Source: Bryoerythrophyllum caledonicum (taxonomy: Eukaryota > Streptophyta > Bryopsida > Pottiales > Pottiaceae). Taken from it: a DNA stretch of 64,000 nucleotides. Of the stretch, positions 16,561-58,100 are shown piece by piece. The stretch covers positions 36,754,199 to 36,818,198 of the forward strand of contig OZ020516.1 of the NCBI GenBank assembly GCA_963971425.1, read 5' to 3'. How positions within the stretch are numbered: the stretch's first letter is position 1; each line of letters opens with the position of its first letter. Under the pieces are notes generated by a model, which was not told where the DNA came from, did not search any database, and saw nothing but the letters and a program-made list of their open reading frames with translations. The position numbers and the translations under genes are program-made.

Positions 16561-16668
16561 CTTAACCTTAGATCCAAAACTTGTATATTTTCAAAACGGT
16601 GTCAAGTGGAATTGAGAGGATCCCAAATATTCCATATTAGTTCCAAATTGTTATAACATTTTTCTTAA

Positions 16669-17605
16669 CCCCTAAGGTACCGTGACAGTTTTACACAAAA
16701 AAAAACACTTCAAAATTGTTGGATTCTAGTGCAATGAATGAAAAAGGATACAAGAACTTCAATTTCTATTTTTTGACCGTAACATCTCAAATGAGACTTA
16801 TTAAGCAACATACTCACAAAATTTTGTTATCTTTGACCACACGGATTGAAAGATTATAGTGTATGAAGGCAAGCAAATGAGTTATTCTCTTCCTTGCGTT
16901 TAGTGGATCAACAGACTTTGACGTCACTTGGTGTCAAATTCTTGCACTACACAAGGTCTAAATCTATTACCATTGTGTCAAGCATGATGTTAGTTCTTCA
17001 TACACCATTTTTTAGAGGTAGAGGAGGGGTGTAGCATATTCAAAACAATTGTGCAAGGAGTGGAGGTTTAAAATTTGTCAATTCACCTTTTAATATTTTG
17101 TGAAATTAATATGTTTTAGATTGATAATCCGAATGGTCAATAATAAGATTTACACTACATCTTGTTGTGGGGAAAATAAAAAGTGAAAAATTTGAGATCT
17201 CTAAGTTTTATGAGGAAAAGAAGAATTTGTTTTGGTACCCTGCCAGACAATGTGTGAAAATGTTTGACTTGGGTTAATATGCTATTTCTCACTAAAGACA
17301 AGAATTTTTTTTGACAATATGAAGGGAAATAATATTACTTGATAGTATTGAAAATATCACATGCAATAGAGTGTCCTTGCAATAGTTTTTGGAGGTGCCA
17401 GAAGTGCCCAGGCTCCCCATTTGAAATTCAAAACCCTCTAACTTTTTCAATAAATGTCGGATTTAGGAAAAAAATGTTCTCCCATTGAGATCTTAGTAAT
17501 GCCCTTGTGCGATAAAAATCTCAAAGTAGAATGTTGGAAATTGACACCATAGGAACTTGACCGAACTTTCAAAAAGCCCATTTTTGACACTTGGTCCTAT
17601 AGGGG
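16669..17605 (-). mobile_element. TTAA-flanked element, family T1, copy 1
   Basis: A 937-bp noncoding element with TTAA directly on both sides (16665-16668 and 17606-17609). Termini are CCCCTAAGG and CCTATAGGGG, an inverted pair starting CCCC. The interior matches copies at 24537, 28045, 32016, 33817 and 54042 in long stretches, for instance the CTTGCACTACACAAGGTCTA-like and GTGTAGCATATTCAAAACAA-like phrases. It has no ORF of note. TTAA target duplication and CCC ends point to piggyBac-type mobilisation; no transposase is present in the window. Confidence 0.75.
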
Positions 17606-17628
17606 TTAATAGAGACTTGTGATAGGGA

Positions 17629-17906
17629 GGCCAAGGCAAATTGACCCCCTCGTTGGGACTTACCCGAGGTGGGCCCCGTCTTAATTGCATGGGGTCATTT
17701 TTTTGGCCCTCTTATTTTGGGGGGTCTAGAGGCTTTTCTGGATTTTTTTGGACAAATTTGGGGCCTACACCCATTGTTTACCGTAGAAGATCCTCCCTTG
17801 CTATAAATAGGGCCCCATCCAAAAGCAAAATAGGGGCCAAGTTTGGCCCCACTACCTCGTGGCCCCCTCGGGTAAGTCCTAGCGAGGGCCTCATTTCGCC
17901 CTGGCC
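17629..17906 (+). mobile_element. MITE with about 40-bp TIRs
   Basis: A 278-bp element bounded by GGCCAAGGCAAATTGACCCC and the inverse of CATTTCGCCCTGGCC; the two ends remain complementary inward to GGACTTACCCGAGG on the left and CCTCGGGTAAGTCC on the right. The middle has TATAAATAGGGCCCC. A degenerate relative lies at about 46640-46910. It sits 24 bases beyond the right TTAA of the T1 copy. Confidence 0.72.
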
Positions 17907-18236
17907 GTGATGGGGAGTCTTTGGGTGATAAAATAGAGGTTTCACTGCATTTCTGGAAAACCATGCTAATTTTCCTACCAGTCAAAAACAAGCATAAAAC
18001 CATAAAATAGTAACCTCTATGCACAAGATACATTTCATCACAGCCCCCATTCACGGAAATCATTGTTGTTTCTTGATGCTTTCACTGATTTTTGTGGCGA
18101 TTGTCTCAACAGATGCCCATCTTCCTCCACCTCTTTTTCATGTTTTAAGCCTCACATGGAGGTGGCATGTAGTAGTTGTATCAAGATTATCGTGCCAACA
18201 CGACCCGAAACGGGTTGCTTGGCCTTAAAAGGTTAA
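17907..18236. other. Intergenic, no gene seen
   Basis: A 330-bp gap between two mobile elements with nothing recognisable. The CTTGGCCTTAAAAGG just before the next TTAA resembles a TTAA-element right end (GGCCTTAAAGGG), and may be a remnant. Confidence 0.3.
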
Positions 18237-18535
18237 CCCTTTAGCCCCAAAGAGACCCTGGCGGGGCCATTTTCGTGCTTTTTCTCTTGTAACTCTTTCT
18301 ACAATAGTCTATTGTCTCTTGCGCACTTTAAACGCATTTTGAGCTCCTCATTAGCTTTCCAACAGACCATTCCAATCTTGAATCCATGTGGGCATCAATA
18401 AACCGTAGTGATTTCCATGAAGTGGAGTTGTAGATTTTTGTGCTAAAGTGTACCCCTATGTATATGATGTTTTGCCTAATCTACCTCACTCATAGATTGT
18501 CTTTGACTCTCGTGGTTCACGTAAGTGCTAAAGGG
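18237..18535 (+). mobile_element. TTAA-flanked element, family T2, copy 1
   Basis: A 299-bp element starting CCCTTTAGCCCC after TTAA (18233-18236) and ending GTGCTAAAGGG before TGAA, a one-base variant of TTAA. The interior (TTTTTCTCTTGTAACTCTTT, AGCTCCTCATTAGCTTTCCA, GATTTCCATGAAGTGGAG) recurs at 38793 and in split form at 44017. Confidence 0.72.
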
Positions 18536-19550
18536 TGAAACAAGAATCATCTAGATTCTAGTTGTTGGTGCAGAATCCAGATATCTGCAGAATGACACAT
18601 GTAAAATAGCACAAAGTCAAAAACAAGAAATACGGTTTAAACCTCGCTAGAAACTTTACTTTGATTGTTCTAAAAAAATGTGGTTCTTCTTTTCTTCCCT
18701 TAAATTATTTTTTACATAATACCATGCATAGGAACAGTTTCATTGTTTCATTTTCTTCTTGGTGGAAGCGAAGGTGCATTTGAAACACGTCAAGATCTTT
18801 GCATGCACATGATTAGTATGTAGTGGGTCATAATACGATAATGGAGGTGATGATCGAGCCAGCCCGCCTGCTGTCATGGCAAGATTGCACGAACACCGTC
18901 CACGCCGGAGCCTGACAGAGGTGCTGTGTCACAAGAGTGACTACAAGAGCGTGTCTTTACCCAAAAACCAAGCACGGAGGTGGCTTCAACCCCACGAAAA
19001 GCTGCATCCATCCAACAGCTAAGCTAGGAGCACAAGCAGCAGCGTCTGTTTTGTGAGTCCGTATATTGAATGGGTGCTACTTGTGACAACAAAGCCTACG
19101 CAGCTCCCCCTAGGACGTTCGTTACGGCAATCACCATGGAATTCCTCGGGTGGTGTGAACTCCCGGATGATCGCCTCGGGTGGTGTGAACTCCCCGATGA
19201 TCGCCCCCTTCTTGTAGTTGTTAGAAATCACAAAAACCAAACCTTGAAAGCCTACGCCTCAACTTTAGGAGCGCCTCATCACCTTCACCACCATTTGGCA
19301 TGAGCCCTCACCAAAGTACACAATCCCTGCAACCCATCCTTTTTTGGACCTTTCTCAAGATCCATGACTGCCCAAACTTCTATGTGGGATCAATCATCCC
19401 ATGAAAAAAAATTCTTGCTTATTTGTCAATTTCCATAGCACCTCAAAAAAAATATCACTTTTTCTGATTTATTTATTTTCCTATTCACTCTCTAGCTGTT
19501 GTTATATTTTTGTGATTAGCGGGGTTAACTGCTCCAGAGATTGAAGAATT
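18536..19550. other. Intergenic, no gene seen
   Basis: AT-rich at the left and balanced from about 18840 to 19310. No supported coding region or RNA gene. It holds one short tandem duplication, listed separately. Confidence 0.4.
19144..19203. repeat. 30-bp tandem duplication
   Basis: Two head-to-tail copies of a unit starting CCTCGGGTGGTGTGAACTCC, differing by one base (CGGATG versus CCGATG). The length is a multiple of three but no real ORF contains it. Confidence 0.9.
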
Positions 19551-19890
19551 AAGGTAAGCCCCCCCATAAGTAATAACCAACCAAAACCCATAGCCAACGC
19601 CTATAAAATTGGGGTATATCCAACCCTCTTCCATCCCATTACCACCAACTCAGCTTCAAATGGAGGTTTGCTATTAGTCAAGACCCTAACTTTTGGTTGT
19701 TGGTTATTGGGGGTACCTATTACTGGCCGCCCACTAAACATGGCTGCACAGTTTGAAAATTCATAACAAATTCAGTTTTCATTGGAAAAATATAAAACCA
19801 CTTGCGTTGGATTTGCAATTCTATTGTATAATTATCTCCTCTCCATATATGCTCATTCCTTAACTTGTCGGTTTTAGGGGGGCTTACCTT
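19551..19890 (-). mobile_element. MITE family A, copy 2 (inverted)
   Basis: A 340-bp copy in the opposite orientation to the others, with ends AAGGTAAGCCCCCCCATAAG and GGGGCTTACCTT. Both termini are intact and define the AAGGTAAGCC consensus best. Confidence 0.82.
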
Positions 19891-20387
19891 GTGTGGTTTG
19901 GGCCACCCGAGGACCTGGGGGGTTGACACAGTCTTACTGGGCAAAGAAAGGCACAGGTTATGACAAAAGTGCAGAAGGGGGCAAATCTACTACGACAAGC
20001 CTGCCACGCACTTGTGGAATCATCTCCAGTTGTAGGGACCCATGTCTCCATTTCAGCTGCAGTGAAATGGCTTCAGATGCACTCCCTCTTCTTTATCCAT
20101 GTGGCCACAAAACCATGCGCACCTACAAGCATAATGATCTTACCCAGAAAAAAGTGATTTGTTTATCTGCCCTCGACTTGTCCCTAATCACAAGGAATCT
20201 GGAGTGGTTTACAATGTGCACTTCATGGCTGATATCCATGTGAAACTAGTCTGATACCATGTCATACGTGGTTAATCCTGAGGCAATTGTGCTGTGAAAG
20301 GCACAAAATAGCTTGCAAACAAGTGAAGGTTGCTTGCAAATAAAAGTTCTGAAAATTTTATGTCTACTCTCGAAAGGGGAAGTAGTT
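19891..20387. other. Intergenic, possible decayed retroelement edge
   Basis: No supported gene; the 116-codon frame starts with GTG and has no recognisable content. On the minus strand TGGTATCAGA at about 20248-20257 resembles the first ten bases of an initiator-tRNA primer-binding site, but the next two bases do not fit. Confidence 0.3.
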
Positions 20388-20746
20388 AAGGTAAGGGGCG
20401 GTTTACACTATAGACCAAGAGCCGTGACCAAGGGAAATGGATTAATTCCATGGTCACACTTCATGGTCACACTTCCATGGTCACACTTCTAAAAAATGTC
20501 ATTTTTAAAGCCCTTGGGCCTCTCATTAAGTGTAAACCGAACTTGGACCGGGAGGAATGACCATGTACTAAAAAGTAGGCGTGCTGATTTTTTTAATGAA
20601 GGCCGAAAAAGGGCAGTTTTGGAAAATTTTGGCATGTTTTACCATCTCTCTTTCTTATCCTCCTTCTCCTTCTTCCCTTCTCTTCTCTTTTCTTCTCTAG
20701 CCTTGAGTATCTTCTTCTCTTCTCTTCCCCTAAAATTGCCGCAACC

Positions 20747-22156
20747 ATGGTTTCAATGGAGGAGAGGAGAAGGAGTCTTGTCTTAGTTTTAGGGTTATAC
20801 ATGTGTTTGTACATGCTTGCGAAGCATGTTGTAGATATGCAAGCCTTGATCTTGCAAGGAGAATGGGAGAAGTTTGCTTTTTTCAGCTTGCTCCATGAAA
20901 GTTTGGGTTGTAGAGAGAGGAGCATATGGAGTCAAGCCCGGATGTTTGGATTTGTGGACCATTTATTGTTGGGTTCATGGACAGAGAAGGATTTTAGGAG
21001 TCGGACTCGAGTCAATTTCGGTACTTTCAGATTTTTGTGTGAGAAATTGGGGCCATATTTGAAGAAAGAAGATACTCGTTTTAGGCCAATTGTGCCTGTA
21101 CAAGATAGGATTGCAATGTCTTTGCATAGGTTGGGTACTGGTGATGGATTGCTGACCATAGGAGATTTGTATGGAGTTCACAAGAGTACACTTTCAATAG
21201 TTGTACGAGAGTTTTGTAAATGTGTTCGGAAGCATCTTCAGCCATTTTTTGTTCAAACTCCAAATGAATCGCAGTTTAGGGCATTAGCTTCACGGTTTGA
21301 ACAACTACATGGAATACCTTACATTATTGGAGCAATTGACGGGTCACACATTCCTGTATTAGCTCCTGTCGTTGGTGGGGAAGATTACTATTGTAGAAAG
21401 TCCTTTCATTCAGCAATTTTACAAGGGATTGTTGGACCAAATTGCGTGTTTTGGGATTATGAGTTTGGTTGGGCTGGTAGTCTTCATGATTGGGCTGTAT
21501 TTCAGGTTACAAGAATATGAGCTTGCATTGAAGGCAAGTTTCAACCTTACAAATTGATTGGAGATGCGGCATATCCGGTGAGACCTTGGATGTATTGTCC
21601 ATTCAAAGGCGGGAAGGCAACATTATCTGGTAGGGAGGCAAATTGGAATTTTATTCAATCATCTACTCGCATGTGTGTGGAAAGAGCATTTGGAATATTG
21701 AAGGGACGATGGAGGTTAATTATGAAAAGATCTGAAGTGCCCTTGAGGAGTATGCCTGATATCGTAGCAAGTTGTATAGTTCTACACAACATATGCATTA
21801 TTAATAGTGATGGCATCGAGGATGATTGGATTGCTGAAGCCGAGGAAAAGTTGAGGAGGAGAGTTGCCGAAGGAGAGATTAGGGACGGCAGCGAATTACG
21901 TGGTGAAAGGGCAGGAATTGCTGAAGTAAGAAGACGAATTGCGGCTACGGAAGATGTGCCTATTCCGGATGAGGTAAATGATGGTGAAACTGAAATTTTT
22001 TTACTCAAAGAAAACGAGAAGGCAAATGATTTGCTTCGTGAAGCTACAATGATGCATGAACTAATAGCTGAAAGCTTGTGGCAGTATAAACTACGCACTA
22101 GCTCCACCATCATTGATATGGATAGTGATAGTGGATTAGATCATCTAGAAGAGTAG
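20747..22156 (+). pseudogene. PIF/Harbinger DDE transposase with one internal TGA
   Basis: A single frame of 469 sense positions from ATG 20747 (context AACCATGG) to TAG 22154-22156, broken only by TGA at 21518-21520 (codon 258). The frame is unchanged on both sides, with LHDWAVFQVTRI before the stop and ACIEGKFQPYKLIGDAAYP after it, so it is a point nonsense change. Catalytic residues are in place: Asp198 in GAIDGSH, Asp248 in GSLHDWAVF and Glu312 in VERAFGILKGRW. Asp273 in GDAAYP is also family-typical. The N-terminal part (about 1-180) has the helical region with a winged-helix-like GDLYGVHKSTLS. The enzyme would cut and paste the element at TWA sites, usually with the Myb-like partner. 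A CT-rich leader precedes the ATG. A 36-nt intron spanning the stop is too short to be plausible. Confidence 0.9.
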
Positions 22157-24389: not shown

Positions 24390-24536
24390 TATATATTACT
24401 AAATCTATGTCCGATGGGCATTGATTTAATGGTGGGACAAACAAACACTATATTCACTCTGGCTTCCTTTGGAGACTAGATTTATTCTTCTTCTTAGAAT
24501 TTGGTTGGTATATGTGAGACCACCATGTGACATTTA
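24390..24536. other. Short spacer between MITE A3 and T1 copy 2
   Basis: No gene or repeat recognised. The sequence before the T1 left end reads TTTA in place of TTAA. Confidence 0.3.
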
Positions 24537-25435
24537 CCCCGAAAGGCCTGTGACAATTTCACACCAAAAACACTTCAAAATTGTTGATTCTAGTGCAATG
24601 AGTAAGGAAGGAAATAAAACCTTAGATTTATCCTTTTGACTGAGGGGATCTCCATTAAGACTTACTTAGTAGTGCACTCACAAAATTTCATTGACCGCAC
24701 AGATTGAAAGATTATTGTATTTGAAGTCAAGAAAATGGTTCATTTTTTTCCCTCCATTGAGTGGATCAGCAGACTTTGACTTCACTTGGTATCAAATTTT
24801 TGCATTACACAAGGTCTAAATCTTTTTCCATTGTGTTAAGCATAATGTTAGTTCTGTATACACCAATTTGTAGCATATTCAAAACAAGTGTGCAAGGAGT
24901 GGAGATTCAAAAATTATCAACTCACGATGTATTTTTTTGAGAATTTAAGATGTTTCAGAATGATAATCTGGATGGAAAATAAGAAGGTTTACACCACATA
25001 TTGTTGTAGGAAAAATAAAAAGTGAAAAATATGAAGATCTCTAGGTTTTATGTAGAAAAGATGAAGCTTTTCCCCCCACTTGCCCGAAATGTGCAAAAAT
25101 GTATGACTTGAGGTTAAATGTTTTTTTGCACTAAACACAAGAATTTTTTTTTTACTACTTCAAAGAACGTAATATTCTCTACATGTATGGAAAATCTCAA
25201 TGTCAATAGAGACTTCTAGCAAAATTTTGGAGCTGCCCAGAGCCCCTATTTCTAACTTTGAGTGGTACTAACTTTCAAACCATGAATCCAAAAATAATAA
25301 TAAAATAATCTCCATGGAGCTCTTATCAAGGTAAATCTAGTATAAGAGTTTTTTAAATTAAAAAAAATTGTCAAATTTTAGGAACCTGCGTACACCCCAA
25401 AACGTACGCCCCACATACACTTGGGATTTCAGGGG
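24537..25435 (-). mobile_element. TTAA-flanked element, family T1, copy 2
   Basis: About 899 bp, same orientation as copy 1. The left end is CCCCGAAAGGCCTGTGACAA and the right end TTTCAGGGG against TTAA at 25436-25439. The left target reads TTTA. The interior follows copy 1 through the ACACAAGGTCTAAATC-like and GTGCAAGGAGTGGAG-like phrases. Confidence 0.68.
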
Positions 25436-25439
25436 TTAA

Positions 25440-25654
25440 CCCCTAAAGGACTAGAGTCTCCTTCGGGGGGATTCCTTGATTTTTGGGTAGGTTCCTAAAA
25501 TTCGAAAGAAAATCAATTTTCTCTGAAATTTTTATTCTAGATTGCCTTTGATAAGAGCTTTGTGGACATATTTTTATTTTATTTTTTAGATTTGTGGTTT
25601 GAAAGTTAGTACCACTTATAGTTTTTGAGGGAAATTGTCAAGGAACTTTAGGGG
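25440..25654 (+). mobile_element. TTAA-flanked element, 215-bp deletion derivative of T1
   Basis: It starts CCCCTAAAGGACTAGAGTCT and ends GTCAAGGAACTTTAGGGG, the typical right end of T1, with TTAA at 25436-25439 and 25655-25658. The middle of the family is missing. It shares its left TTAA with T1 copy 2, which lies head to head with it, so the junction is the palindrome AGGGGTTAACCCCT (25431-25444). Confidence 0.7.
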
Positions 25655-26164
25655 TTAAACCGTGTCGTGCGCCATTAAATCTAGGGGGAGCAAGATATAA
25701 TGGGCTTCATCGTCACGGGTGGTTTTACAGGAAGCATCCATACATAAGCCAAGGCGGTCGGATGGAATGATTCTGAGCTTGGACCTCTGCCCGGAGCATG
25801 ATTGCAGGAGCTGGTATTTTGGTTTTGTCATGAGCCATGGCGGGATTCGTTTCGAGGGCTGCATCCACATTACCCATGCAAAGGTGAAACCAAAGTGTGG
25901 TCTCTGGTTTGCAAGAGGACACACAGTACGGATCAGTCATTGATCAAGGACACCAAGTACAAAACAAATGACAAAACCAGCCATTCATTTTACGTTTCCT
26001 CAGCCATTGACCCCGGCGACGAGGTCAACATGACCGAGCAAGCAAGGCACGCAAATAATAAAACTCCATCTTCCCCCCTGTAATTGATGCTAATCGTCCA
26101 TTTCACTGTGATTAAGCAGGCTCACATCGCTGACACTTCACTTTTTAAATTGTAGCGTATCACT

Positions 26165-27605: not shown

Positions 27606-28044
27606 TGTTACCTTTTTAATTTATAGGTTGTAATATAAAAACTACATTAAAATGGTTGGACTAATGAGTTGCAAAGCAAGCACCAATTGCTAGGGTGAAA
27701 AGAGCATGGGCCCCTGCAATACCGAGGTGATACCCTTGAGTTGCACTCCATCAAAAGAGCTCGGGCTTTGCTCCACTAAATGAATGTTGCAAAAGTGCAA
27801 TTATAAGCAGATAATACTCTGATTGGTAAACAATAAAATCCTAAACCCATATTTGGTTTTTACTATGAATGATCATTTTAGATAAACTCTATACTTTGAG
27901 GAATTTAAATTGTCATGAAATAATATAGAGAATTGTCTATGTTAGTGAGTCTGTAATAACTCCAATTAATATCATTTGACTCTTTTTTAAAAATTTCAGA
28001 TGTTGAGGATACTTTATTAATTTATTAATTTTAAGCCAATTTAA

Positions 28045-28950
28045 CGCGTAAAGGCCCAAGAGTCCCCTTGGGGGACTCTAGAAGGTTTGGGCAGGTCCCT
28101 ATGGTGTCAATTTATAGCATTCCTTTTTGAAATTTCTACTGTAGATGGACATTGCTAAAATCTTCATGTGAGTCCAATTTTTCTCCCCAATCGGACATTT
28201 TATGAAAAAGTTATAGGGTTGAATTTCAAATGGGGAGAGCGGGTACGTCGGGCAATTCCAAAATCAATTGCCAGGACAATCTATTGAATGTGAGATTTTC
28301 AATACTAGAAAATAATATTATTTCCTGTCACATTGTCTTGATCTCTTGCATTCTAATCTTAGTCAAACATTTTCACACATTGTCACACTTTGTCGGGCAA
28401 GGTACCAAAAAAACTTCTTCTTTTCCACATAAAACTTAGAGATCTTCATATTTCTTACATTTTATTTTTCAACTACAAGAAGTAGTCTAAACCTTCTTAT
28501 TGACCACTCGGATTATCATTCTAAAACATATTTAGTTCACAAAAAAATAAAACGTGAATTGGCAATTATTGAACCTCCACTCCTTGCACATTTGTTTTGA
28601 ATATGCTTCACCCCTTCTCTACCTCTAAAAATTAGTGTACAAGGAACTAACATCATGATTAACATGATGGTAATGTTTTCAAACCTTGTGTAGTGCAAAA
28701 TTTTACACCAAGTGTAATCAAAGTGTGATGATCCACTCAAAGTAGGGAAGAAAAAGAACGATTTTCTCTACTTCAAACATTATAATCTTCCAATCCGTGC
28801 GGTCAACGTTTATGAAATTTTGTGAGGACGTTAATGAAATTTTGTGAGGACGTTAATGAATAAGTATTAATTTGGATCCTATGGTTAGGTGTAGAAATAA
28901 AAGGTTTTGATCACCTCATTACTCATTGCAATAGAACGAGCAAAAGCATG
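28045..28950 (+). mobile_element. TTAA-flanked element, family T1, copy 3 (right end lost)
   Basis: It starts CGCGTAAAGGCCCAAGAGTC after TTAA (28041-28044) and continues with CCCCTTGGGGGACTCTAGAA and the T1 interior in plus orientation. The match fades near 28950 without a right terminus or TTAA. A 28820-28855 phrase (ATGAAATTTTGTGAGGACGT) is duplicated in tandem. Confidence 0.65.
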
Positions 28951-31620: not shown

Positions 31621-32015
31621 TCTACTGGGGATGAGGTTGGAATAATGTATGACTGAGATGCTCATCATTTCTACCTCCAATTATTTTCAGGCTTTTCAAG
31701 CGCATGCGCTCCTTTGTGAAAGCAAAACGGAGGAGAACGTGGAGGAGAAAAAAGAAAAAAGAAAAAAGAAGTGTGATTATTCTACTGAAGGAAATTATTC
31801 TCAATATTTTTATTTGAACCACACACTTTAAAAACAATATTCTAGAAAACAATGTGCTTTAGCCTTTTGCATAGCCGTAAAATAGGGTGCAAAAAAATTG
31901 AATGTAACACTTATTCGACATTTGAATGATTCTAATCCCCAATTTATATATCAATATAAACTACATTTTGGATATTAGCCTTTACATCTTATTTCTAGTA
32001 GCCTTTAAATCTTAA

Positions 32016-32957
32016 CCCCTAAATTTCCAAGAGTCCCCTCGGGGGACTCTAGAAGGTTCGGGCAAGTTCCTATAGTGAAATTTTCTAGTAGTTTTCTTCG
32101 AAATTTTTAATGTAAATGGACATTACTAAAAGCTTTGTGTGAGTCCAATTTTTTCCTAAATCCGGCATTTTATGAAAAAGTTATAGGGTTTTGAAGTTCG
32201 TATGGGGAGAGCGGGCACGTCGGGCAACTCCAAAACTTTTGCTAGGACACTCTATTTAATGTGAGATTTCCTATACTAGCTAATAATATTATTTCATTTC
32301 ATATTTTCAAAAAAAATCTCTTGTCTTTAGTGAAAAAATTGCATATAAATCCAAGTCAAACATTTTCACACATTATCGCACATTGTCGGGCAAGGTACCA
32401 AAAAAACTTCTACTTTTCCACATAAAACTTCAAGATCATCATATTTTTTACTTTTTATTTTTTCCGCAGCATTATGTGGTGTAAACCTTCTTATTGACTA
32501 TTTGGAATCTCATTCTAAAACATATTTAGTTCAAAAAAAAAAAACGCAAATTGACAATTTTTTAGCCTCCACTCCTTGCACAATTTTTTTGAATATGCTA
32601 CACCCTTTCTCTACCTCTAAAAATTGGAGTACAAGGTACTATTATCATGCTTAACATGATGGAAATATATTTAGACCTTGTGTAGTGCAAAAATTTGACA
32701 CCAAGTGAAGTCAAAGTCTGTTGATCCACGAAACATAGGGAAGAAAATGGACCCTTTTCTCTCTTCAAACACTATAATATTACAATCTGTGTGGTGAATC
32801 TTTATGAATGTTTTTGTGTAAGTTACTTAATAAGTTTCAATTGAGATCCTACAGTTAAAACTAGAAGTAAAAGTTTTAGATTTCGTCCTTACTCATTGCA
32901 CTAAAACAAGCAGTTTTGAAGTGTTTTTGGTGTGAAATTGTCAAAGCAATTTAGAGA
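32016..32957 (+). mobile_element. TTAA-flanked element, family T1, copy 4
   Basis: A 942-bp full-length copy with TTAA at 32012-32015 and 32958-32961. The left end is CCCCTAAATTTCCAAGAGTC and the right end is GTCAAAGCAATTTAGAGA (family consensus TTTAGGGG). The left end contains an internal palindrome GAGTCCCCTCGGGGGACTC. No ORF. Confidence 0.75.
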
Positions 32958-33117
32958 TTAACCCAAAGTTGGCTTTTTAATGAAATTCGTTGAAATAGAT
33001 TTGAAGTTAGGTCTAGATTGTGCTCCAACAATCTTAGCTCAATCCAAGATGTGTTGAAAGTATGGCAAGCATTTTAGTTCATTGGTGTTAGTTTTGGCCA
33101 TTTTTTCATACATAAAT

Positions 33118-33745: not shown

Positions 33746-33816
33746 GTGTAGGCGTGGTGCCGCCACTGGTTGACCACCACGATTGTATTCTTTTGAATGA
33801 CGTTCAGATAATGCCT

Positions 33817-34754
33817 AAATTTCCAAGAGTTCCCCCGGGGGACTCTAGAAGGTTCAGGCAAGTTCCTATGGTGTAATTTTCTAATAGTTTTCTTCAATAT
33901 TTTTCATGTAGATGGACATTACTAAAAGCTTTGTGTTGGTCCAATTTTTTCCTAAATCCGGCATTTTATGAAAAAGTTATAGGGTTTTGAAGTTCAAATG
34001 GGGAGAGCGGGCACTTCGGGCAACTCCAAAAACTTTTGCTAGGACACTCTATTAAATGTGAGATTTTTGGTACCAGCTAATAATATTATTTCCTTTCATA
34101 CTGTCAAAAAAAATCTCTTGTCTTTAGTGAAAAAATTGCATATAAATCCAAGTCAAACATTTTCACACATTATCGCACATTGTCAGGCAAGGTACCAAAA
34201 AAACTTCTACTTTTCCACATAAAACTTCAAGATCATCATATTTTTTACTTTTTATTTTTTCCGCAACATTATGTGGTGTAAACCTTCTTATTGACTATTT
34301 GGATTCTCATTCTAAAACATACTGAGTTCACTAAAAAATATAATGCACATAGACAATTTTTGAACCTTCACTCCTTGCACAATTTTTTTGAATATGCTAC
34401 ACCCTTTCTCTACCTCTAAAAATTGGAGTACAAGGTACTATTATCATTCTTAACATGATGGAAATGAACTTAGACCTTGTGTGGTGCAAAAATTTGACAC
34501 CAAGGGAAGTCAAAGTCTGCTGATCCACGAAACACAAGGAAGAAAATGGACCCTTTTCTCCACTTCAAACACTATAATATTACAATCCATGTGGTCAAAC
34601 TTTATGAATGTTTTTGTGTAAGTTACTTAATAAGTCTCAATTGAGATCCTATGGTTAAAACTAGTAAAAGTTTTAGGTTTTGTCCTTACTCATTGCACTA
34701 GAACAAGCAGTTTTGAAGTGTTTTTGGTGTGAAATTGTCAAAGAAATTTAGGGC
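33817..34754 (+). mobile_element. TTAA-flanked element, family T1, copy 5
   Basis: About 938 bp, very similar to copy 4 along its whole length. The right end is GAAATTTAGGGC before TTAA (34755-34758). The left end is damaged: ATAATGCCTAAATTTCC stands where TTAACCCCTAAATTTCC is expected. The interior phrase TTTTGCTAGGACACTCTATT is shared with copy 4. Confidence 0.7.
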
Positions 34755-37700
34755 TTAAGATGATGTCACCCTTTGAAGATGATTTTATCTGAAACAAGAA
34801 TTTGTAGCATTTCTAATTAAAGATCATAGATTCTAAGTTTTAAGTAATTTGAACTACGAAGAAAATCTATTTTATAGCCCTTCTGATTTTTTCCATACAT
34901 TTGAATCTGTTGTATGTTACATTGTCTACCTTCTCCTATAACAAGGGTTTGTATTCCTAGAATGTGTTTTATTCATACAAAAATAAGGTAATGTACTTGG
35001 AATATACATTGAAAAAGTTTAAACTTAGACAATATGTAAAACACAGCTATTCCTTTATTTTTTTGGTTCTTTTTGTTCTTCCTTCTTCTTCTCATTGTGC
35101 TTTGAGATATGAAGATTGCTATTATATGCACAAATGATATGTGTGACCATTTGGATGAATTTTGAAGTCTTACTTGTATATGTATGGATATCATATCGAT
35201 TCTTGAGCCTTCTGCATACATTAAACATTTAGGTTGATTCTTCCACTAAACGCACGGATACTAGATTTTTTTTCAAGTCTATATGTATGCATACAAATAT
35301 TAAGTTGATCCATAAGATCTTTTTGTATCTATCAAGATTTAGATTGATGTGTCATGTCTACTTATATGTATTTGGCTATTAGGCTCCTACGCCAAACCTA
35401 CATTTGGATATCAAGTTGACATGTTCACTTTTTAACTACGTGTAACACTATAGGATTGTTTTGTCCACGTTCTACTTCCGTACGATACTGTGAGATTTAC
35501 ATGTCCACTTTTTAAGGAGCATTTGACACTTTGAGATTGATATGCCAAGTGCATTGGTATATGTTTGAATTTACCAACATGTGTCAAACTATTACAAGTC
35601 CATGTCATGTAAATATCAAGATATGGCGTTGAATTACCAATTTTGTAGATAACCAAATAGCTTGACATGCGACCATTGTTTGATTGTTGAAGGTCATTTT
35701 CCGAGATATCTTTGAATCTCAATAAATAAACAATTTATATTACATGACGGCGCTGAGTTGTAACGCAACCATGTTCTAGTCAATTTCAAGTTTTAGACAA
35801 TGAGCGAAGGCAATTCAACTGCTTCTAGACCGCAACTTGCCAAGAGTATTTCCAGATACAGAGTCGCCCTTAGTCATGTTCAAGGCATGTGATGCCCCAA
35901 GTCAGTGTATAAACCAAAAGTGTCAAGTGAAATATTGGCATCATGATGTCGGGCCGGCTAAGCTGTTTTTCAAAATCTAGCGTGTGTCAACATGCAGCAA
36001 GCAGTACATACACCTCGAGCTGACCGAAAATCTCTGCTAATTTGATTTCAGTTTGGACCTCAAAGTACCCTGGTACAAACTACGCTGGCTAGCGTCTCAT
36101 CATCAGTCTGAGCCAACTGATTTTATATGAAACTGAGATCACCAGATCGAAAAGGAAAAATGGTTGAGTAGTTTGTGAGGATTTAGTCCCCTTTTGGATA
36201 CTTTAGAGGTGTGTAAATTATTTCAACGAGTGCCTTACATCACATAGAATGCAATACTCATCATTTTATCATAAAAACTTAAAGCGTTGACCCTAGGTGA
36301 AAAAGACCATTGAACATGTCTTAAATGCTATAATTCTCCAATCTATGTGGTCAAGAATGATACCTAAGAGCTGATATGATCTTCAGGTAATACATAACAA
36401 GATCCTACGGTTAGAAGTGGAATGAGTTCATTTTCTTCGAATGTGTTATATTGGCGGCCTCAATGATAGACGAATAAGTAAAAAGTAGTATTGAATCTTT
36501 CTAAGAAGGTGTCTTCTTAAAACTTTGCAAGACTTGACCGGAATTTTTGCATGGTCATGTTTTTCAACTAGACACAGTACAAATAAATCATTTAGTGTGC
36601 CTACACTAGACATAAAATATACCATACTGGTCTTGGGGCTGTTCCATGCCATTGAACCCTATAAAAATATTCTAGGACCATAGACCTTCAATACTATCAT
36701 TCAATATTTCCCAGACAGTCTAGTGATCTCAAAAAGTTCATATCTTGGATCATGTCGAAGAATGGAAGGTGGGCCCCATCACAACCATGACAAAATATGA
36801 TGTTTGTAGAGTGGTAAGTGGTCAGTCACTGGTGGTTTAACCGAGTGTGTATGAGTCCGGAAAGTGGCCAATTGTGGAGTTCAATGGCTAGAGAAATAGT
36901 AGTCTTCTAGATGAAAAGATTTTACTAGTGACTTACTGTAGCGTATGCACTGAAGAATGTCAGTGGACAATATGCAAGCGAGACGAGGTCAATGAAGAGC
37001 ATTTTGCCGAAGAAATAAGTCATGTGGATGTCCTCATGCCTTTGATGTCACTACGTGGTCACTTTTTTGGAGATAGCTACAGCCCATAAAATTCCCCTAG
37101 AATCACGCTAGTTGAATGAAGAGGGGTCTTCTTTCATCTCTCTCAAAATAGCTCCCCAAAAAATGATAGCACTAGGGAAAAAAATTAGCATATTTTAGGA
37201 TACAAAGGTAAATAAAACTGGCTCCAGTTAGAATGGAGGAGGGCCATTATTTTCAGTTAAAAAGCTGTTTATGGACTGTTGGATTCTATAGGTCTTTCCA
37301 TTAGTAAAAATAAACATAGAAGCATGAAAACTAACCCTTACCTCTCTACAAATGGGCTTTTCAATGTGCATCATAGGAACTTCCACTAACTCTAATTTTT
37401 TAAAAACAAATAGCCAACACAACCGCCTTTCAGATTTTACCCCCGAAAAAAAAAAAAAAATCTATAGAGGAGGAATTTTACTTCTAGAGGAGTTTTAAAT
37501 TTCTAATGCCCTCCAAGATGAAAAGCCTCGTTTGGTAAGGGTTCATTTTTCCAAAGGTAGAAGTTAACCAAGTAAGTTTCAATGCAAAATATCATTGCCG
37601 AGTGAACTGAGATGGAGAGCAGTCATCTAGGTTTAGGGTTTAGGGTTAGGGTTACCATGACGCGGTATTAAGTGAGGAAGGACAAGCCATAAGAACTCTT

Positions 37701-38792
37701 GCAAGAGAATGAAGAAGAAGAAGATTGAAGAAGCAGTTGAGATTATGATGAGATCGTAGAAGATTGAGATAATTCAGTCTGAGCGGCAGATCAAAGTACC
37801 CAATCTACTCAGATATTCACACCTTGCTGATCAATTAGTTAGGAGATTAGTAAGGATGAGATGCTGGGTTAGTGGTAAATTAATTTGACTAACTCCTGAC
37901 TTTTCCGCATTTTTTTATCCCACAAAATTCAACCGCCGCCGAATCTTCTTTCCTGTGTACTCAGACGGTAATTTTGGCGGTTTTCACTATTATAGGCAAT
38001 TTCGAATCCAGCGAAATTCTAGATGTACATTCCTAGGTACAAGTTCAACCATTTTTGTATTATAAATAGCTTCTATTTTGTCAATTTATAGATTTTTTTA
38101 AAGAGAGAAAAGACTGAAAGTCAATTGGCAATTTGAAAATCTGCCTACAGAGTAAAACATGGGCTTACCAAGTTTAGGTTTGGTTTTACTTTGGTGAAGA
38201 AGTGTACGGGAGTGGAGCAACATGATTGGTCAAAGATAAAAGATGTAAGGGTCATTTTTTTCAAAACAATTGATGACGCTCTTGGCCAAGTGTGAAGGGC
38301 CCTTATTTGTGTTTTCACCCCTATTTGCATACCCCAGCTGTATTTGGCATTTGCAAGCCTTTAGAAAGTGAAACTTAAACATCAGAATCCAACTCGTCCA
38401 TAATTTATTTAAAAAAATCACAAAATACATGAATCACCTTCATTTGTAAAATAATCTTCAAGAATTGAATGGATGAAAATGATGTCTACTAAAACACAAT
38501 GAAGCATGGAAATTGTAAACCCTTCAAGGCCTACGAGGGTGACCATGCATGGGAGAATCTACAAACGCAACAGATCATGTAGAGCATCATTTACACAGTG
38601 GGTACAATTCATCACGACCGGTCACTACAAACATCACATAGTTTGCCTGTCAGACTCTAGTGCACATTTTCACTGCATCCATTGAAAGCGTTGGGTCGCA
38701 GATCAAACAAAGATGAAGTATGGATCCACCAAATTCGCAAATTACTCCAAAAGTGACGACATAATATGGGCCTCTTGTCCTGAAAGGGTTGA
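34755..38792. other. Intergenic, no supported gene
   Basis: Frames up to 96 codons on the minus strand have no recognisable product. At 36200-36460 there is a diverged relative of a T1 segment (TATAATTCTCCAATCTATGT, GATCCTACGGTTAGAAGTGG). A 15-A run lies near 37446. Confidence 0.4.
37631..37653. repeat. Short interstitial telomere-like repeat
   Basis: GGTTTAGGGTTTAGGGTTAG: three units of the Arabidopsis-type TTTAGGG telomere repeat, the last lacking one T. Too short to be a telomere relic with certainty. Confidence 0.6.
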
Positions 38793-39087
38793 CCCTTACG
38801 CGCCGCAGAAGCCACGACAGGGTCATTTTTTGTGCTTTTTCTCTTGTAACTCTTTCTACAACAGCCTATTGTCTCTTGTGTACCGTGAACGCATTTCCAG
38901 CTCCTCATCAGCTTTCCAACGGATCATTCCAATCTCTAATCCATGCAAACTACAACGATTTCCATGAAGCGGAGCCGTAGAATTCTGTGCTGAAATGTAC
39001 CCACTATGTATATGATTTTTTGGGGGCCTAATCTACGACACTCGTAGATTGCCTCCGAGAGCTAATGCAATAGGTGGAAGCTTGGGG
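38793..39087 (+). mobile_element. TTAA-flanked element, family T2, copy 2
   Basis: A 295-bp copy, CCCTTACGCGCC at the left after TTGA and AAGCTTGGGG at the right before TTAA (39088-39091). The interior is aligned with copy 1 along its whole length (TTTTTCTCTTGTAACTCTTT and AGCTTTCCAACGGATCATTC). Confidence 0.68.
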
Positions 39088-40230
39088 TTAAACTACAGCA
39101 TGACGACGTGTATCTAGCACAACGAGATTCACAATGAATGTAAAGCATACGTGGTAAGTACGTCACGCCAGGCGCTGCTGGGTCTGTGGGAGCTCGGTGG
39201 TGGCCCGGCCTTCCAACTCATCTGCCTTCATTATTTTTTCTCCCTGATCCAATAGCAATTTAAAAAAGCAGGGTGAAGTATTTTTTATTTTTTTAAAAAT
39301 TATTTACAGGGAGCTGGGGGAGGATTGATGAGAGGTAGGGTCACGTGGCGAGGGCGTCGTCACCTCGGGGAGCGAGTCGAGTTGGCGCGGGCGCACTCCT
39401 ATGAGCGCAGCGAGCGCAATGACAACATGGAGGCCGTGGTGTCGGAGCGCGAGGTGAGGGATTCAAGAGGGCATCCCTGCGCTTGCAGGCGGCAAGTCAA
39501 ACGGCGCCAGCAGCGGCACCCAGGCTCCACCTTCACTCTCTCTCTCTCTCTCACTTTCACCTTATAAAGCTTCCCTCTAGAAGTTGTATTCTTTTAATCC
39601 CGAGGGCATGACGCAGTCTACCACGAACACGTCAAGTTGTCAACTCCGAGTGTCCAATTCAGTACTCTCAGACAGTGAAACGCCTAGGTGAGCTGGGCAC
39701 CTGCCTTTGCTTGGTTAGTGTAGCACACTGTAGGTATCCCGGCACCGGACTTTCGGGGATATAGCTGAGCCCGGGAGAACCGCCATGAATACTTAGCCGG
39801 AGACGTAGTTGCCCCGTGCTCCCTCGCTGCGTGAGTACTAAACTAGTAGTACTGCTACCACTGCTCAGGTAGTCTGAGTCGTGTATGGAGTCTCTGTGTG
39901 CCGAAAGCGCTCCGGTCTTTAGGGGCTAGAGTTCGTTACAACTTCCACAAGGCAGGCTGCAGGTGTTGGAGGTTTGACGCCGCCCCCGGCCTACGCCGCC
40001 ACAGGCAGAGTGGGTAGGTTCCAGTAGTACCTCGAGGCGCTGGAGGAGTCCCTAGCCTGTGGATTAGTTGAACTGATCTTGATCTGCTGATCCGTTGTGG
40101 TGAATATACTTATCTCTAAAGCGGCGAACTGCTACGTCCTTCCTGGTTTGGAGGCCGAGCTGGGTTTGGAGGACTCTAGAATCTGAGTTGTCACGCATTT
40201 CGGAGTTGGAAGGGAGGGCGGGAATTGAAG
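39088..40230 (+). promoter_or_regulatory. MYB gene upstream region, TATA box and long 5' leader
   Basis: Clearly more GC-rich than the surroundings. A pyrimidine patch of TCTC repeats (39537-39552) precedes CCTTATAAAGC at about 39560-39570, a good plant core promoter. Transcription would start near 39595, giving a leader of about 640 nt with upstream ATGs, unless an unseen intron is removed. Frames at 39325-39567 are not supported as genes. Confidence 0.5.
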
Positions 40231-47793: not shown

Positions 47794-48491
47794 TACACCG
47801 TTCACTGAATATAGTGTGGAGGTATAGGTAATGTGGATGAAAATTGAGGTGGACCACATCAATTCTAGTTTTGGATGAAAATTGATGTGGACCACATCAA
47901 TTTTGGTTATTAATATAGTATTAATATGTTATTATTATATATGTTATTATTGTATATAATATTAATATTATAATATATGTTATTATGTTATTCATATATG
48001 TTATTATTATATTATTATATTATTATTATGTTATTATGTTATATTATTATGTTATTATGTTATATTATTATGTTATTATGTTATATTATTATGTTATTAT
48101 GTTATATTATTATGTTAATATTATATTCTGTTATATTATATTATAATATTATGTTTATATTCTTATGTTATAAAATAATATTATTATGTTATTATATTAT
48201 TATGTTATATTATTTTATTATGTTATTATAATATTATGTTATTATTTTATATTATGTTATTATGTTATTATTATGTTATTATATTATAATTTTGGTTTTA
48301 GGGTACAACTTGTAAAAACTTATCCACATCAATTCCCGTGTCTTTTATTTTGAAACAAGCCACACTATTTCTAATGGACATGATTTGATGTGGATGGAAA
48401 ATTGAAGTGGACCACTTTAATTTGCGTTTAATGAAATTAGTGTAGGAAATTTCAAATAGTCTAGTCTACACTATATTCAGGGAACGGTGTA
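47794..48491. mobile_element. MITE with 27-bp TIRs and an AT minisatellite core
   Basis: Ends are TACACCGTTCACTGAATATA-GTGTGGA and, inverted, TACACCGTTCCCTGAATATA-GTGTAGA, 25 of 27 identical. Next to the left end a GATGAAAATTGA(G/T)GTGGACCACATC phrase is repeated twice, and a related inverted form (GAAGTGGACCACTTTAATT) sits near the right end. The centre is replaced by a long TTATTATG-type array. Flanking target duplication is not clear. Confidence 0.72.
47930..48292. repeat. TTATTATGTTA minisatellite
   Basis: Almost only A and T with regular G: tandem variants of TTATTATGTTATTATGTTATA, most regular at 48028-48120 where a unit of about 27 bp recurs. It lies inside the MITE and opens a spurious Leu/Tyr/Ile frame. 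Confidence 0.85.
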
Positions 48492-52680: not shown

Positions 52681-52689
52681 GATCCAAGT

Positions 52690-53415: not shown

Positions 53416-54041
53416 TGTATCGTAAAGTCTTGTATAAAGATCAACCAATGTCGGTAATGTAATATTTAATATATATAAACAAATATAACTTACCGTACAT
53501 TGACTTGTACTTTGGATAATTCAAGGCCGTTTTCTTATTTCAAACAACCTTTCATTTTCCTTTTTACCGTAGTCAAGTATATTTTAAATTTAGATTATTA
53601 TAGTACATACCAATTAAATAAAAGTAGAAAAAATAATTATAAAATGATATTAAATCCTTTGTATCCACATGTTCAAATCTTTGTCTTTTCTTTGAAGTTA
53701 GGTAAAAAGTCAATATCAAAATGGAAAATATTATTTTTACCATGAAATTCAAAACATAAAACTAAAATTGATATAATCTACAATAGTGTTGTGTTTGATA
53801 TCTTTATAGGAAATTTGAACTTAATGAATGTCATAAATAAGTAGTCCTTTCTAATAAAAATAATAAAACTTGTATAATGTATGGATTGACATCATTGTTG
53901 GATATCTATTAGTTTGTGTTGTACTTTTTAGAATCCAAAAGGGATGTAATGCATTTTTTGTTTTTTTGTTTTTTGGTTACAATTGATAAAGGTAACCCTA
54001 CAATAATTATAAATAATATAATTAAATAATTCTTAATTCAA

Positions 54042-55124
54042 CCCCTAAACTCCCATCAGTCCCCTCATGGGACTTTTGAAGATTTGGGTAGGTTCCTACA
54101 GTGTCAATTTACAATATTATTCTTTGAAATTTTTAGGGTAGATGCACATTACTAAAAGCTTTATGTGGGTATATTTTTTTCCTAGTATCAACATCTATTG
54201 AAGAAGTTATGTCACCGTAAAGGAAAACGTTCCAAGAGCTCTTATTTTGGTGTGCATTGAACTAACATCATGCTTAACCCTTTAAGGCCGATCGACAATA
54301 CATGGGTCATTTTGGAACAAGAACCTTATTAGAGAGCGCTATAGGCCACCTAAAAGGGAAAAATAGACTATGACTTAGAGGTGGAGCAAGGTGGGATTTC
54401 AATGGGACCGTTGCCACCAAAATTGGATCTGTAACGAGCTCATGCGGCTGCTTTTAGTGGAGTGAGGTCGGCGTAGATCTTGGAAAGAAGTATTAAAGAT
54501 GTACACGGTTTTGTATGTTGGTCACCACATGGACATTGGTGGTAGGTTATCATTGGGCGGCACTTTGTCAACGAGAAAAGAAGTGGAGTCGGTATAGAGG
54601 TCTACAAAGTCCACTGTATTTCAGAGTATAAAGCGCTTTCATGATTTCCGTCTTTAGACATTTGCAAATTGGTCATGTGTATTCGATGTGTATAGACAAG
54701 AGTGGACAATTCATCAAAGGGATCTTAGATCAGAGCCTTAATTTAATCAGGGGAGGGCGTATACGCCAAGCTGTGTCTAGAGTACAAAACCTCATCGGCC
54801 TTAAAGGGTTAACATGATGGTGATGAATTCAGACCTTGTGTAATGCAAAAAATTGACTCCAAGTGAAGTCAAAGTGTGCTAATACACTCAACACATGGAA
54901 GTCTGTTAATACACTAAATCGTTTTATCTACTTCAAAGACTATTATCTTTTTATGTGTGGTCAAAGTTTATAAAATCTTACGAGGATGTTACTTAGTAAG
55001 TTTTAATGGATATAATATGGTCAGAAGTAGAAATGAAAGTGTTTGTTTCCTTCTTTACTCATTGCACTAAAAGAAGCAGGTTTTGAAGTGTTTTTGGTGT
55101 GAAAATGCCTTGAGACTTTAAAGG
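54042..55124 (+). mobile_element. TTAA-flanked element, family T1, copy 6, with nested T3
   Basis: Left end CCCCTAAACTCCCATCAGTC after TCAA, right end TTTGAGAC-like TTTAAAGG before TTAC. It has the T1 palindromic left end (CAGTCCCCTCATGGGACTTT) and the CTTGTGTAATGCAAAAAATT phrase, but part of the middle is deleted, and a 531-bp element interrupts it. Confidence 0.65.
54278..54808 (+). mobile_element. TTAA-flanked element T3, nested in T1 copy 6
   Basis: A 531-bp element with perfect 15-bp inverted ends CCCTTTAAGGCCGAT, TTAA on both sides (54274-54277 and 54809-54812). The uninterrupted target CATGCTTAACATGATGG is seen in T1 copy 4 near 32647, which proves insertion at a TTAA with duplication of those four bases. 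No ORF. Ends resemble those of T2 copy 3. Confidence 0.88.
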
Positions 55125-58100
55125 TTACATCGTAGACCATATCTCCAAACTGAGCTTTGTTTTCTTTCAATTGGCATTTCCATCTAAAATCAAAATTATT
55201 ATATATAATCTATCAACAATAACCAAAAATTTCAATTATAATAATAACAATTATTGAAGACGACTATAGATAAATGAATACAAAAAATTCATAAATATAA
55301 TATAGTATCAATACTAAATAAATCTATACATAAAAAGTAGAAGTAGATAATAAAAGCATATAAATAAACCAATAAGTGGTCCTAAATATTTTAATACATT
55401 AATTAACAAAGTCCTGTAAGTGAATCTCTCTTTCGACCTCCATTCACTAGATTTATCTTAACCAAGCCTTCTCTTACAACTTGCATAAAAAAATTAAAAA
55501 ATATTTGTACCATAATAAATAAATTTGTGTTGAAAAAAAAATACCACACTAAGGTCATAATTGAGTTTATAACCTGGAAGTATAAACTCTACCTTAGTTG
55601 TCAAGTACTATCCATATATAGTATGTGCTCCAAAAATCAAAATTAAAACTATAATCATAGTCTTCAATATTGTTAAGTAGTATTTTTTACCAATTGAAAA
55701 TTTATCCAATGTGACCTGATTCGTTCGCTGGGGAGGTGTGTAATTAAAGGATCGGGGTTATGATTTTAATACCCATGGGATGGTTCAATCCAGACCAAAT
55801 TCAAGTAACCATGCTTCCATACTACTTCATTGGTGACACCACCGATCTCTTAATTATCATATGTGATACCAAAAGCTAACCTCTAATGGGTGATGAAAGT
55901 CTGCTACACTTAATGATATTTCAAATTGCTTACTTCAAAATATTCTTCCATCTGCCAATAAAGGGCAGCTTCCACGCTCACCGGTTCTCTGATTATTCCG
56001 GTCCAATTGTATTCAGGCTCAATTTTAATCAGCCATTGGTAATCCTCTTCCTTCAGCACTGCTCCAATCGATATGTCTTTGTTGAAGATATTCCGGTCCA
56101 ATTGTATTCAGGCTCAATTTTAATCAGCCATTGGTAATCCTCTTCCTTCAGCACTGCTCCAATCGATATGTCTTTGTTGGTCTTCAACAGTATGTGAATC
56201 TCTTCATGGATCTTTTGCTTCGTCTCTAAATCCACCGTATTAATTTGTCTTCCCAAATAGTGTATTCAAATATACTTATGGCTTAACAATTCTCTCAACT
56301 TGTCAATTAACTGCCTATTGGTGAGCCTCACTCCATGCATTTTTTCCAAGTACTCGGCATAATCTCACATCACTCAACATGGCTTCCTTATTGGTTTTCT
56401 CCAATCTGTCTTCAACAATACTCCTTTCTCAGTTCTCCAATTATTCTTCTTCCTTCTTAATCTTCATTTCTATTTCAACTTCTTCTTATTCGTTAATCCA
56501 CACTTCTCTTCATATTTATTTTTCCCTCTATTGTTATTTTTTTTAATTTTTGTTAATTTTTATTTTTCTCTTCTTCTTATCAAAGGCAGGTATGATTATT
56601 CTCCAATAGGTAAGTTCTCTTCACTTGTCTCGAGAACCAATGGAGTAACAGCTTCCCAATCCGGCTTCAATCACATCCGGCGCACATCGTACCAATTGGT
56701 AACATGGCCATGGTATACCTCCATGCCTGTCCAACTTCCCAAATTGGTTTCAAATCTTCTCCATTCACAACTTACTCCACATCACCATCAATCACCAATC
56801 ACACAGATTTCCAGAACCATATTTGTATATCTCCAATAGTATCCACTACACATCACATCACAGTCACAGAAAGAAAACTAAAAAAATTCAACTAATACTG
56901 TCCAATCTCCAGGAAGGAGATCCTGCACTACACACAAAGAGACTGATTTCCCAATTGGCATTGTTCTAACTTATACTGCCTGATTGGTTTGGTCGGTTAC
57001 CACCAATCAACCACCTGATTAACTAATTCTAACCAATTGGAAAATTAACTACCACTAGCCACCAGTTACACTACGAGAGTTCTATCTATTGGTAACTCCT
57101 CCGATCGAACCACAAAAGGTCGCCAGTAGAAAGAAAGAAAATAATTCCAACTACCACAAGTATCAACAAGGAAAATATTTGAGTAGTTTTGGGTGATATC
57201 CATATTCTAGAATGAAGTACGACCAATTCTACCCAAAGCTTTATCACTCTAATATAAGTCCGGAAAAGATTGGATTTGTTGAGAAAACAACTCGGTGCTA
57301 TATTTCCAAAATTACTCTGCAAAAATATCACCAAAATGTTCTAATTGTGATTCGTTTGAAAATTCTTTCCAATCCTTCTTCAATTCCTTTTGTTGTTCTT
57401 TCTAGTGTTTAGATATTGGATGACTACACATGAAAAGTAATACCAAAATTAAATCAGCAAACCATATAATATACGTTATAAATTTTATAGAAACTTATCT
57501 AGCAAGTGTTTCGGCAATTCAATACCCAAATATTACCATATCACCCGAATATTTAACTTTTGATTGCTCTATGTAAACTCTATTAATTTACAACTTCATA
57601 GTATGTTGACTAAGCTGCAGCAGTCAATAAAATTCCTTGAGCTATACAAATTCCAGTAATCCCATCTTCCTCCTGTAAAGCAAATGAGCCTACAAGCTCA
57701 ATAGTGTTTAATAAAGTTTCTTCAAAATCAAATAAACCTTCAAATATTTTTTGATATAAAACCTCTTTTACCTTCATCACAATCTTCATTGAAATTGGAA
57801 TTTTCTCCCCTCTTCATCAAAGATTATGAATAATTGTCTTTTGCATCTTTATCATTCAAAATTGCAATGTAGGATAACACTTCCTTCGTAATACTTTCAA
57901 CCTCCTTCTGCCTCACATACTCTTGCAAACAATGATCAAGAGACACGCCAAGCTTGTTTAAGGTCCTCAAATGTTGATCATCATAATTATGGTTATTGAC
58001 TTACTTTTCAAAATTGACAACAACACAATAAATTGTACCAACAAATTGTACCTCTTAAATCTTTTGGAGGAACCACCAATTTTTATTTTTATTTTCTCCT

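Follow-up and report, generated by a model that had tools for sequence, protein, structure and literature searches.

TTAA-flanked, CCC-ended miniature elements point to native piggyBac superfamily transposition in the land plant Bryoerythrophyllum caledonicum

The window analysed here, a stretch of 64,000 nucleotides of the Bryoerythrophyllum caledonicum genome, carries noncoding miniature elements of three families (T1, T2 and T3) bounded by TTAA, and raises the question of which transposase moved them. A TTAA target and CCC ends are known features of piggyBac; no transposase gene of the DDE_Tnp_1_7 type was seen in the window, and such genes lie elsewhere in the genome. In our judgement, T1, T2 and T3 are almost certainly miniature piggyBac superfamily elements that are non-autonomous and were mobilised in trans by the transposases of longer elements. 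We base this assignment on the TTAA boundaries, the empty sites, the transposase-bearing elements and the ends of one of these, R10; as judged by sequence comparison, T1 is a non-autonomous piggyBac element, and T2 and T3 are very likely such elements too.

The preliminary description had claimed at least eleven elements, and 11 were placed: six T1 copies, one short T1 derivative, two T2 elements, T3 and a T3-like fragment (Table 1). The four pairs that it called clean (16665/17606, 32012/32958, 25436/25655 and 54274/54809) all have exact TTAA, and only four of the 11 elements have it on both flanks. CCC lies inside the TTAA at the left end in all four named pairs; at the right end, an exact GGG is present in the pairs closing at 17606, 25655 and 54809, and the end at 32958 is AGAGATTAA, an altered GGGG. 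The length of 531 bp given for T3 was reproduced between the TTAAs at 54274-54812.

Table 1. Positions of the elements, and of one related empty site, in the window
Feature	Position	Strand	Remarks
T1 MITE, 945 bp including both TTAA	16665..17609	-	exact TTAA on both flanks; aligned with 39 other genome copies
T3-like end fragment	18088..18236	-	65% over 150 columns against T3 left end; TTAA in common with T2 at 18233
T2 element, 0.3 kb	18233..18539	+	left TTAA; right TTCA (read inward), a one-base variant
T1 copy	24533..25439	-	left TTTA, right TTAA
Short T1 derivative	25436..25658	+	TTAA on both flanks; left TTAA common to the T1 copy at 24533
T1 copy, right end lost	28041..28942	+	left TTAA; internal TTAA at 28661 is a T3 empty site
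T1 copy	32012..32961	+	TTAA on both flanks; internal TTAA at 32651 is a T3 empty site
T1 copy, 93% identity to the copy at 32012	33808..34758	+	left ATAA, right TTAA; internal TTAA at 34450 is a T3 empty site
T2 element, 303 bp	38789..39091	.	left TTGA (one-base variant), right TTAA
Related empty site, single TTAA, for T1 copy L058 (G000:C6:30069482-30070425)	48338..48476	.	joined-flank test
T1 copy split by T3	54038..55127	+	left TCAA; right end inexact
T3 element, 531 bp between TTAAs	54274..54812	+	TTAA on both flanks; first 15 bases inside the TTAA identical at the two ends

The end motif is far more frequent than chance would give. The window has 7 occurrences of TTAACCCYTWA, where 30 order-2 Markov simulations averaged 0.1 and never exceeded 1, and 22 of TTAACCC, against a simulated mean of 6.7 and maximum of 12. 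Across the plant's own 437 Mb genome, TTAACCCYTWA is found 33,516 times and the reversed pattern 1,794 times; the T3 end TTAACCCTTTAAGGCCGAT is found 143 times and its reversed control 0 times.

When 40 T1 copies are aligned, column agreement is 0.70-1.00 from the TTAA inward and 0.25-0.53 outside it. Exact TTAA stands on both sides of 29 copies, one or both sides being inexact in the other 11; the sample, taken by best score from 11,095 first-look candidates, is biased towards intact copies. The empty sites, sought in the window's own genome as the preliminary description had proposed, came out in favour of its reading. Joined-flank tests yielded a related empty site with one four-base unit for nine of 53 junctions, the other 44 having no accepted site. 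Alignments across the joint were printed for 21 of the 53, and eight passed the filter (E 1e-6, and on either side of the joint 30 bases or more at 75% identity or better); the ninth, the T3 junction W54274, was accepted from the unfiltered joined-flank alignment, which starts at query base 54 and for that reason falls outside the filter. For six junctions, one or more relatives have exact TTAA (T3 at 54274, element R12, and T1 copies L056, L058, L080 and L089), and three (L062, L070 and element R22) have one-base variants only. At L080, the majority of relatives have TTGA (36 of 59) and 13 have TTAA. Twelve junctions failed the filter (L055, L063, L066, L067, L072, L073, L074, L076, L086, L087, R33 and W24533), and in several of them the match is to the end of the element itself or to an adjoining one. 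Copies mostly lacking TTAA, a duplication of another length and ends running well beyond the CCC, which had been named beforehand as contrary outcomes, were not found, and none of the results speaks against the piggyBac class.

A search of the genome for DDE_Tnp_1_7 (PF13843) gave 120 matches above the cut-off (116 scored of 305 candidates); the control genomes of this family search are prokaryotes, judged by the five named, and therefore include no plant as negative control. The domain is free of stops in 19 of the best 30 loci. Pfam assigned five frames to DDE_Tnp_1_7 at 1e-73 to 2e-81, with no other family at 0.001 and no zinc family among the transposase frames. Two tested frames match Trichoplusia ni piggyBac (6x67) at 4.9e-30 and 1.4e-28, and the same two frames that were aligned to 6x67 match piggyBat (9c0f) at 1.6e-29 and 1.5e-24. 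By hand count in the alignments, D268, D346 and D447 of 6x67, which we take to be the catalytic triad, lie over D in both frames. Of 31 loci given a strict pattern search, 16 showed all three motifs and the other 15 missed at least one pattern. A C-terminal cysteine-rich zinc domain is a further trait of the superfamily; by eye, some frames have tails rich in cysteine and histidine, and the alignment of such a tail to that of piggyBat is weak (-2.2 bits).

These transposases were found inside TTAA-flanked, CCC-ended elements, and together with the single-TTAA empty sites this supports the original piggyBac reading. Both boundaries were located in seven of 11 extended loci (the other four are R27, R29, R30 and R38), giving elements of 4.0-10.9 kb. 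Similarity stops at the TTAA at both ends in the copy pairs R17/R22 and R33/R35, and at most five bases from it in R12/R14. Some full-length copies are nearly identical to one another, which suggests recent movement. The preliminary description had envisaged one transposase serving several MITE lineages, and this point needs amending. As the 30 best loci fall into at least seven DNA-level groups and the full-length elements differ in their end sequences, several helper transposases would be more likely than one.

The connection between miniature and transposase-bearing elements is clearest for R10 (G000:C3:16507305-16518192), both ends of which are common to T1. On the left, the T1 majority sequence is identical to R10 over the first 24 bases and then 72% identical over 219 columns; on the right, where the boundary of R10 was set from its end sequence without a second copy, the first 17 bases are identical, followed by 68% over 228 columns. 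R12 is more distant from T1 (69% over 189 columns and 61% over 289 columns). The DDE_Tnp_1_7 match of R10 has a stop within the frame. We suggest that a transposase of R10 type would be the mover of T1, that it would bind the CCC-starting ends, excise the element, probably seamlessly, and join it into a TTAA target, and that the four target bases would end up on both sides of the insertion. T1 thus appears tied to one transposase lineage, and T2 and T3, for which we would also expect a piggyBac helper, are tied to none yet.

Kolobok and Sola3 also target TTAA. One of these superfamilies could have moved the miniature elements, the piggyBac genes being bystanders, and the TTAA duplication, which is not unique to piggyBac, would fit either origin. 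The proposal is largely refuted for T1, since R10 has both T1 ends, and the CCC ends are as in the transposase-bearing piggyBac elements; overall we regard it as very improbable. What it retains comes from T3, for which a search of the genome with T3 DNA and its exact end identified no helper. No transposase-bearing element with both T3 ends (terminal sequence CCCTTTAAGGCCGAT) was seen among the seven bounded ones or in two candidates that we rejected: L104, at 4.8 kb the widest listed pair of T3 ends, consists of separate miniature elements without a transposase match, and L105, a member of a 474-aa transposase family, has no pair of TTAA/CCC ends. Among the matches listed there are at least three full-length T3 copies, and most other scored places match one T3 end alone. 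In the window, T3 is inserted in the T1 copy at 54038-55127, and the sibling T1 copies show the T3 empty site. T3, R12 and L089 are inserted at the same internal TTAA of T1, within the near-palindrome CATCATGCTTAACATGATGG; seven insertions, including L055 (later dropped by the filter), were judged nested in T1. Six TTAAs lie inside the T1 majority sequence, and three insertions at one of them are not clearly beyond chance, so we did not retain a preferred landing site.

The elements could instead be of Tc1/mariner type, with ACCC ends and a duplicated TA, the outer T and A reflecting target preference; a TTAA target joined at TA would give the same sequence. Of the 40 T1 copies, however, 29 retain the outer T and A on both sides, and such transposases as were found in elements of this shape belong to PF13843; we consider this origin scarcely credible. 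Least plausible of all, to the point of being negligible, is that the elements go with the PIF/Harbinger-like genes at 20600-23677, which T1 copies do flank: the inverted repeat enclosing those genes (19573-19826 and 24136-24375) is a different one, and the related empty sites show a four-base unit rather than the three-base target duplication of Harbinger.

The miniature elements are therefore best read as piggyBac, an element kind that is well known from animals; it is the host that is unusual. An rbcL sequence found in the course of the analysis looks bryophyte-like. Like piggyBac of T. ni (PDB 6x67, 6x68), the plant elements have a homologous transposase domain with the three aspartates conserved, a TTAA target and CCC ends. 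The hosts differ, as do the sizes: the insect element is given as about 2.5 kb (PMC10813416, consulted in part) against 4.0-10.9 kb, and its chain has 594 residues against stop-to-stop frames of 813-955 aa in some plant copies. The piggyBat transposase (PDB 9c0f), from Myotis lucifugus according to part of PMC11707139, is likewise homologous, but it has an animal host, and the plant genome holds several diverged lineages. Animals are also the hosts of the MITEs of two coral genomes, where piggyBac, TTAA and MITE recur in the portion of text consulted (PMC2872659).

For land plants, the fern Ceratopteris richardii has 1,230 pieces (122 kb) labelled PiggyBac in the repeat table seen (PMC6890710), a class count only, whereas bounded elements, open frames and empty sites are described here. 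The part consulted of a review of land-plant transposons gives six TIR superfamilies, and the word piggyBac does not turn up in the review's text (PMC9033089). According to excerpts of a 2025 article, plant genomes contain piggyBac occasionally, red algae being its example, and plant studies are still limited (PMC12732532); passages of two others state that it is found in plants without describing an element (PMC10813416, PMC10794571). That piggyBac is seldom described from land plants agrees with our literature search, which found no native land-plant description among the open-licence PMC titles and abstract starts listed, a scope that leaves subscription journals and Repbase outside.

On balance we lean, by a modest degree, towards a land plant with a native, multi-lineage piggyBac complement: several intact transposase genes, recent insertions, a population of TTAA/CCC-ended elements that may number ten thousand or more, and internal TTAAs of T1 as frequent landing places. 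The near-identical full-length copies would offer a way to study how plants silence or tolerate the piggyBac superfamily, and the plant copies a test of horizontal transfer into plants. Plant editing, for which the insect piggyBac is used, may also find a native alternative among them.

The assignment of these elements to the piggyBac superfamily, made in the preliminary description, is correct, as judged from the TTAA boundaries, the empty sites and the presence of the piggyBac-type transposase domain (DDE_Tnp_1_7, PF13843) in elements with TTAA/CCC ends. All four TTAA pairs claimed for the window are at their positions, and the swarm proves to consist of six copies of T1 (about 0.94 kb), one short T1 derivative, two copies of T2 (about 0.3 kb), one T3 (531 bp between TTAAs) and one T3-like fragment. 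The window spans C3:36754199-36818198 of a genome of 437 Mb in 894 contigs. The pattern TTAACCCYTWA occurs seven times in the window (0.1 expected); genome-wide there are 33,516 occurrences, compared with 1,794 of the reversed pattern. Some of the matches listed belong to a short tandem array (from C1:455457 onward), so this excess is not an element count. The 19-base T3 end is found 143 times in the genome and its reversed pattern not at all.

The alignment of a window T1 with 39 other copies shows column agreement of 0.70-1.00 across about 23 inner bases and 0.25-0.53 outside the element, at both ends, the step falling at the TTAA. These 40 copies had the highest scores among 11,095 first-look candidates and are hence biased towards intact ones. 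Exact TTAA flanks both sides of 29 of the 40 copies; the remaining 11 have altered or missing ends.

To see whether empty sites carry a single TTAA, the check first proposed, the two flanks of each of 53 insertions were joined with one TTAA and searched for in the window and fetched loci; the set comprised 40 T1 copies, seven elements with a transposase and six window elements. A related unoccupied site was found for nine. Six of these have one or more relatives with exact TTAA, and three show one-base variants only (TCAA; TAAA; TCAA and TTCA). For L080, one of the six, the relatives of the empty site have TTAA in 13 of 59 and TTGA in 36 of 59. The clearest case is T3, whose insertion point in the T1 copy at 54038-55127 corresponds to a single TTAA in three other window copies of T1 (28041, 32012 and 33808); the transposase-bearing R12 occupies this site in a different T1. 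This near-palindromic TTAA (CATCATGCTTAACATGATGG; window 28661, 32651, 34450 and 54274, locus L089, and R12) is the target of three separate insertions. Adjacent elements also share one TTAA back to back (window 25436-25439 and 18233-18236; L104 4524-4527), which looks like the insertion of one element into the TTAA that borders its neighbour.

The proposed genome search for PF13843, in which 116 of 305 candidates were scored, returned 120 matches above cut-off. They are spread over 13 large and six small contigs, and four loci have two each. The domain lacks an internal stop in 19 of the best 30 loci. At the DNA level these 30 form at least seven groups; grouping was by whole loci, so some may have been merged through flanking T1 copies. 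PF13843 was the sole family matched in five frames scanned against Pfam. Two frames align with the solved T. ni piggyBac and piggyBat structures across the catalytic domain, placing aspartates beneath piggyBac D268, D346 and D447. There was no match in 14 control genomes; those named are prokaryotes, uninformative for plants. Contigs C5 and C13, both apparently small from summed sizes, have no entry among the T1, PF13843 or T3 matches listed.

Of 11 loci extended, both boundaries could be placed, at TTAA with CCC ends, in seven; R27, R29, R30 and R38 are not among these.

Transposase-bearing elements with TTAA/CCC boundaries at both ends
Element	Location	Length	Feature
R10	C3:16507305-16518192	10.9 kb	whole T1 nested inside
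R12	C3:17753132-17759686		813-aa frame
R14	C9:9718676-9725151		805-aa frame
R17	C9:3124490-3129422	4,933 bp	TTAA/CCC both ends
R22	C4:15096672-15101613		TTAA/CCC both ends
R33	C15:16342240-16346199	3,960 bp	
R35	C11:4705973-4709932	3,960 bp	955-aa stop-to-stop frame

R17 and R22 are about 97% identical and R33 and R35 97-98%, similarity stopping at the TTAA at both ends in each pair; R12 and R14 are 99.4% identical across 5,761 bp (R12, R14 and R30 each contain 200 N). Such high identity between full-length copies suggests movement in the recent past, which is not the same as present activity.

R10 shares 24 identical bases with the T1 majority sequence at the start and 17 at the end, with 72% and 68% similarity inward of these over about 220 columns each, and T1-type ends recur in more distant forms in R12 and R14. 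On these comparisons the best reading of T1 is as a relative of an R10-type piggyBac, either rebuilt or with internal sequence deleted. The R10 transposase match has a stop in frame, so the active copy may be a different one. No transposase-bearing partner of T3 was found among the elements examined; three full-length T3 copies are listed, and the majority of the remaining scored places match a single T3 end. An open piggyBac transposase frame of 474 aa lies at L105 (C10:18465200-18471200), and five of the PF13843 matches listed have such a frame without a stop. No TTAA/CCC end pair was seen around the one copy examined; this type may be a host gene, or may belong to a lineage whose ends differ.

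Other genes in the window are a PPR gene, a CRR42-like gene and one of R2R3-type MYB; for the second part of the MYB gene the closest relative of solved structure is the plant factor WER. Together with rbcL, which is present in the assembly, these genes mark the genome as that of a green plant, probably a land plant. At 19550-24409 are PIF/Harbinger-like transposase frames (DDE_Tnp_4) separated by one stop; a frame on the opposite strand matches Myb/SANT-like domains slightly below the Pfam cut-off. Inverted repeats of about 0.3 kb flank these frames, with further copies at 11130-11489 and, partial, at 50006-50180; the whole may represent a long-ended Harbinger element, plus its MITEs. In a minisatellite at 47913-48310 the copies follow one another at intervals of 8 or 13 bases, without regular order.

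Among the matches listed, open-access titles and abstract openings contained no report of complete native piggyBac elements in a land plant, subscription journals and Repbase lying outside this scope. In excerpts from the literature, piggyBac is described as a superfamily of animals, fungi and protists, occasional in plants (PMC12732532), a review of land-plant elements gives six TIR superfamilies (PMC9033089), a small PiggyBac class appears in the repeat table of a fern (PMC6890710), and two papers mention in passing either plants as hosts or PiggyBac as a plant superfamily (PMC10813416; PMC10794571). The piggyBac kind is already known; what surprises is its host, together with how many lineages there are and on what scale.
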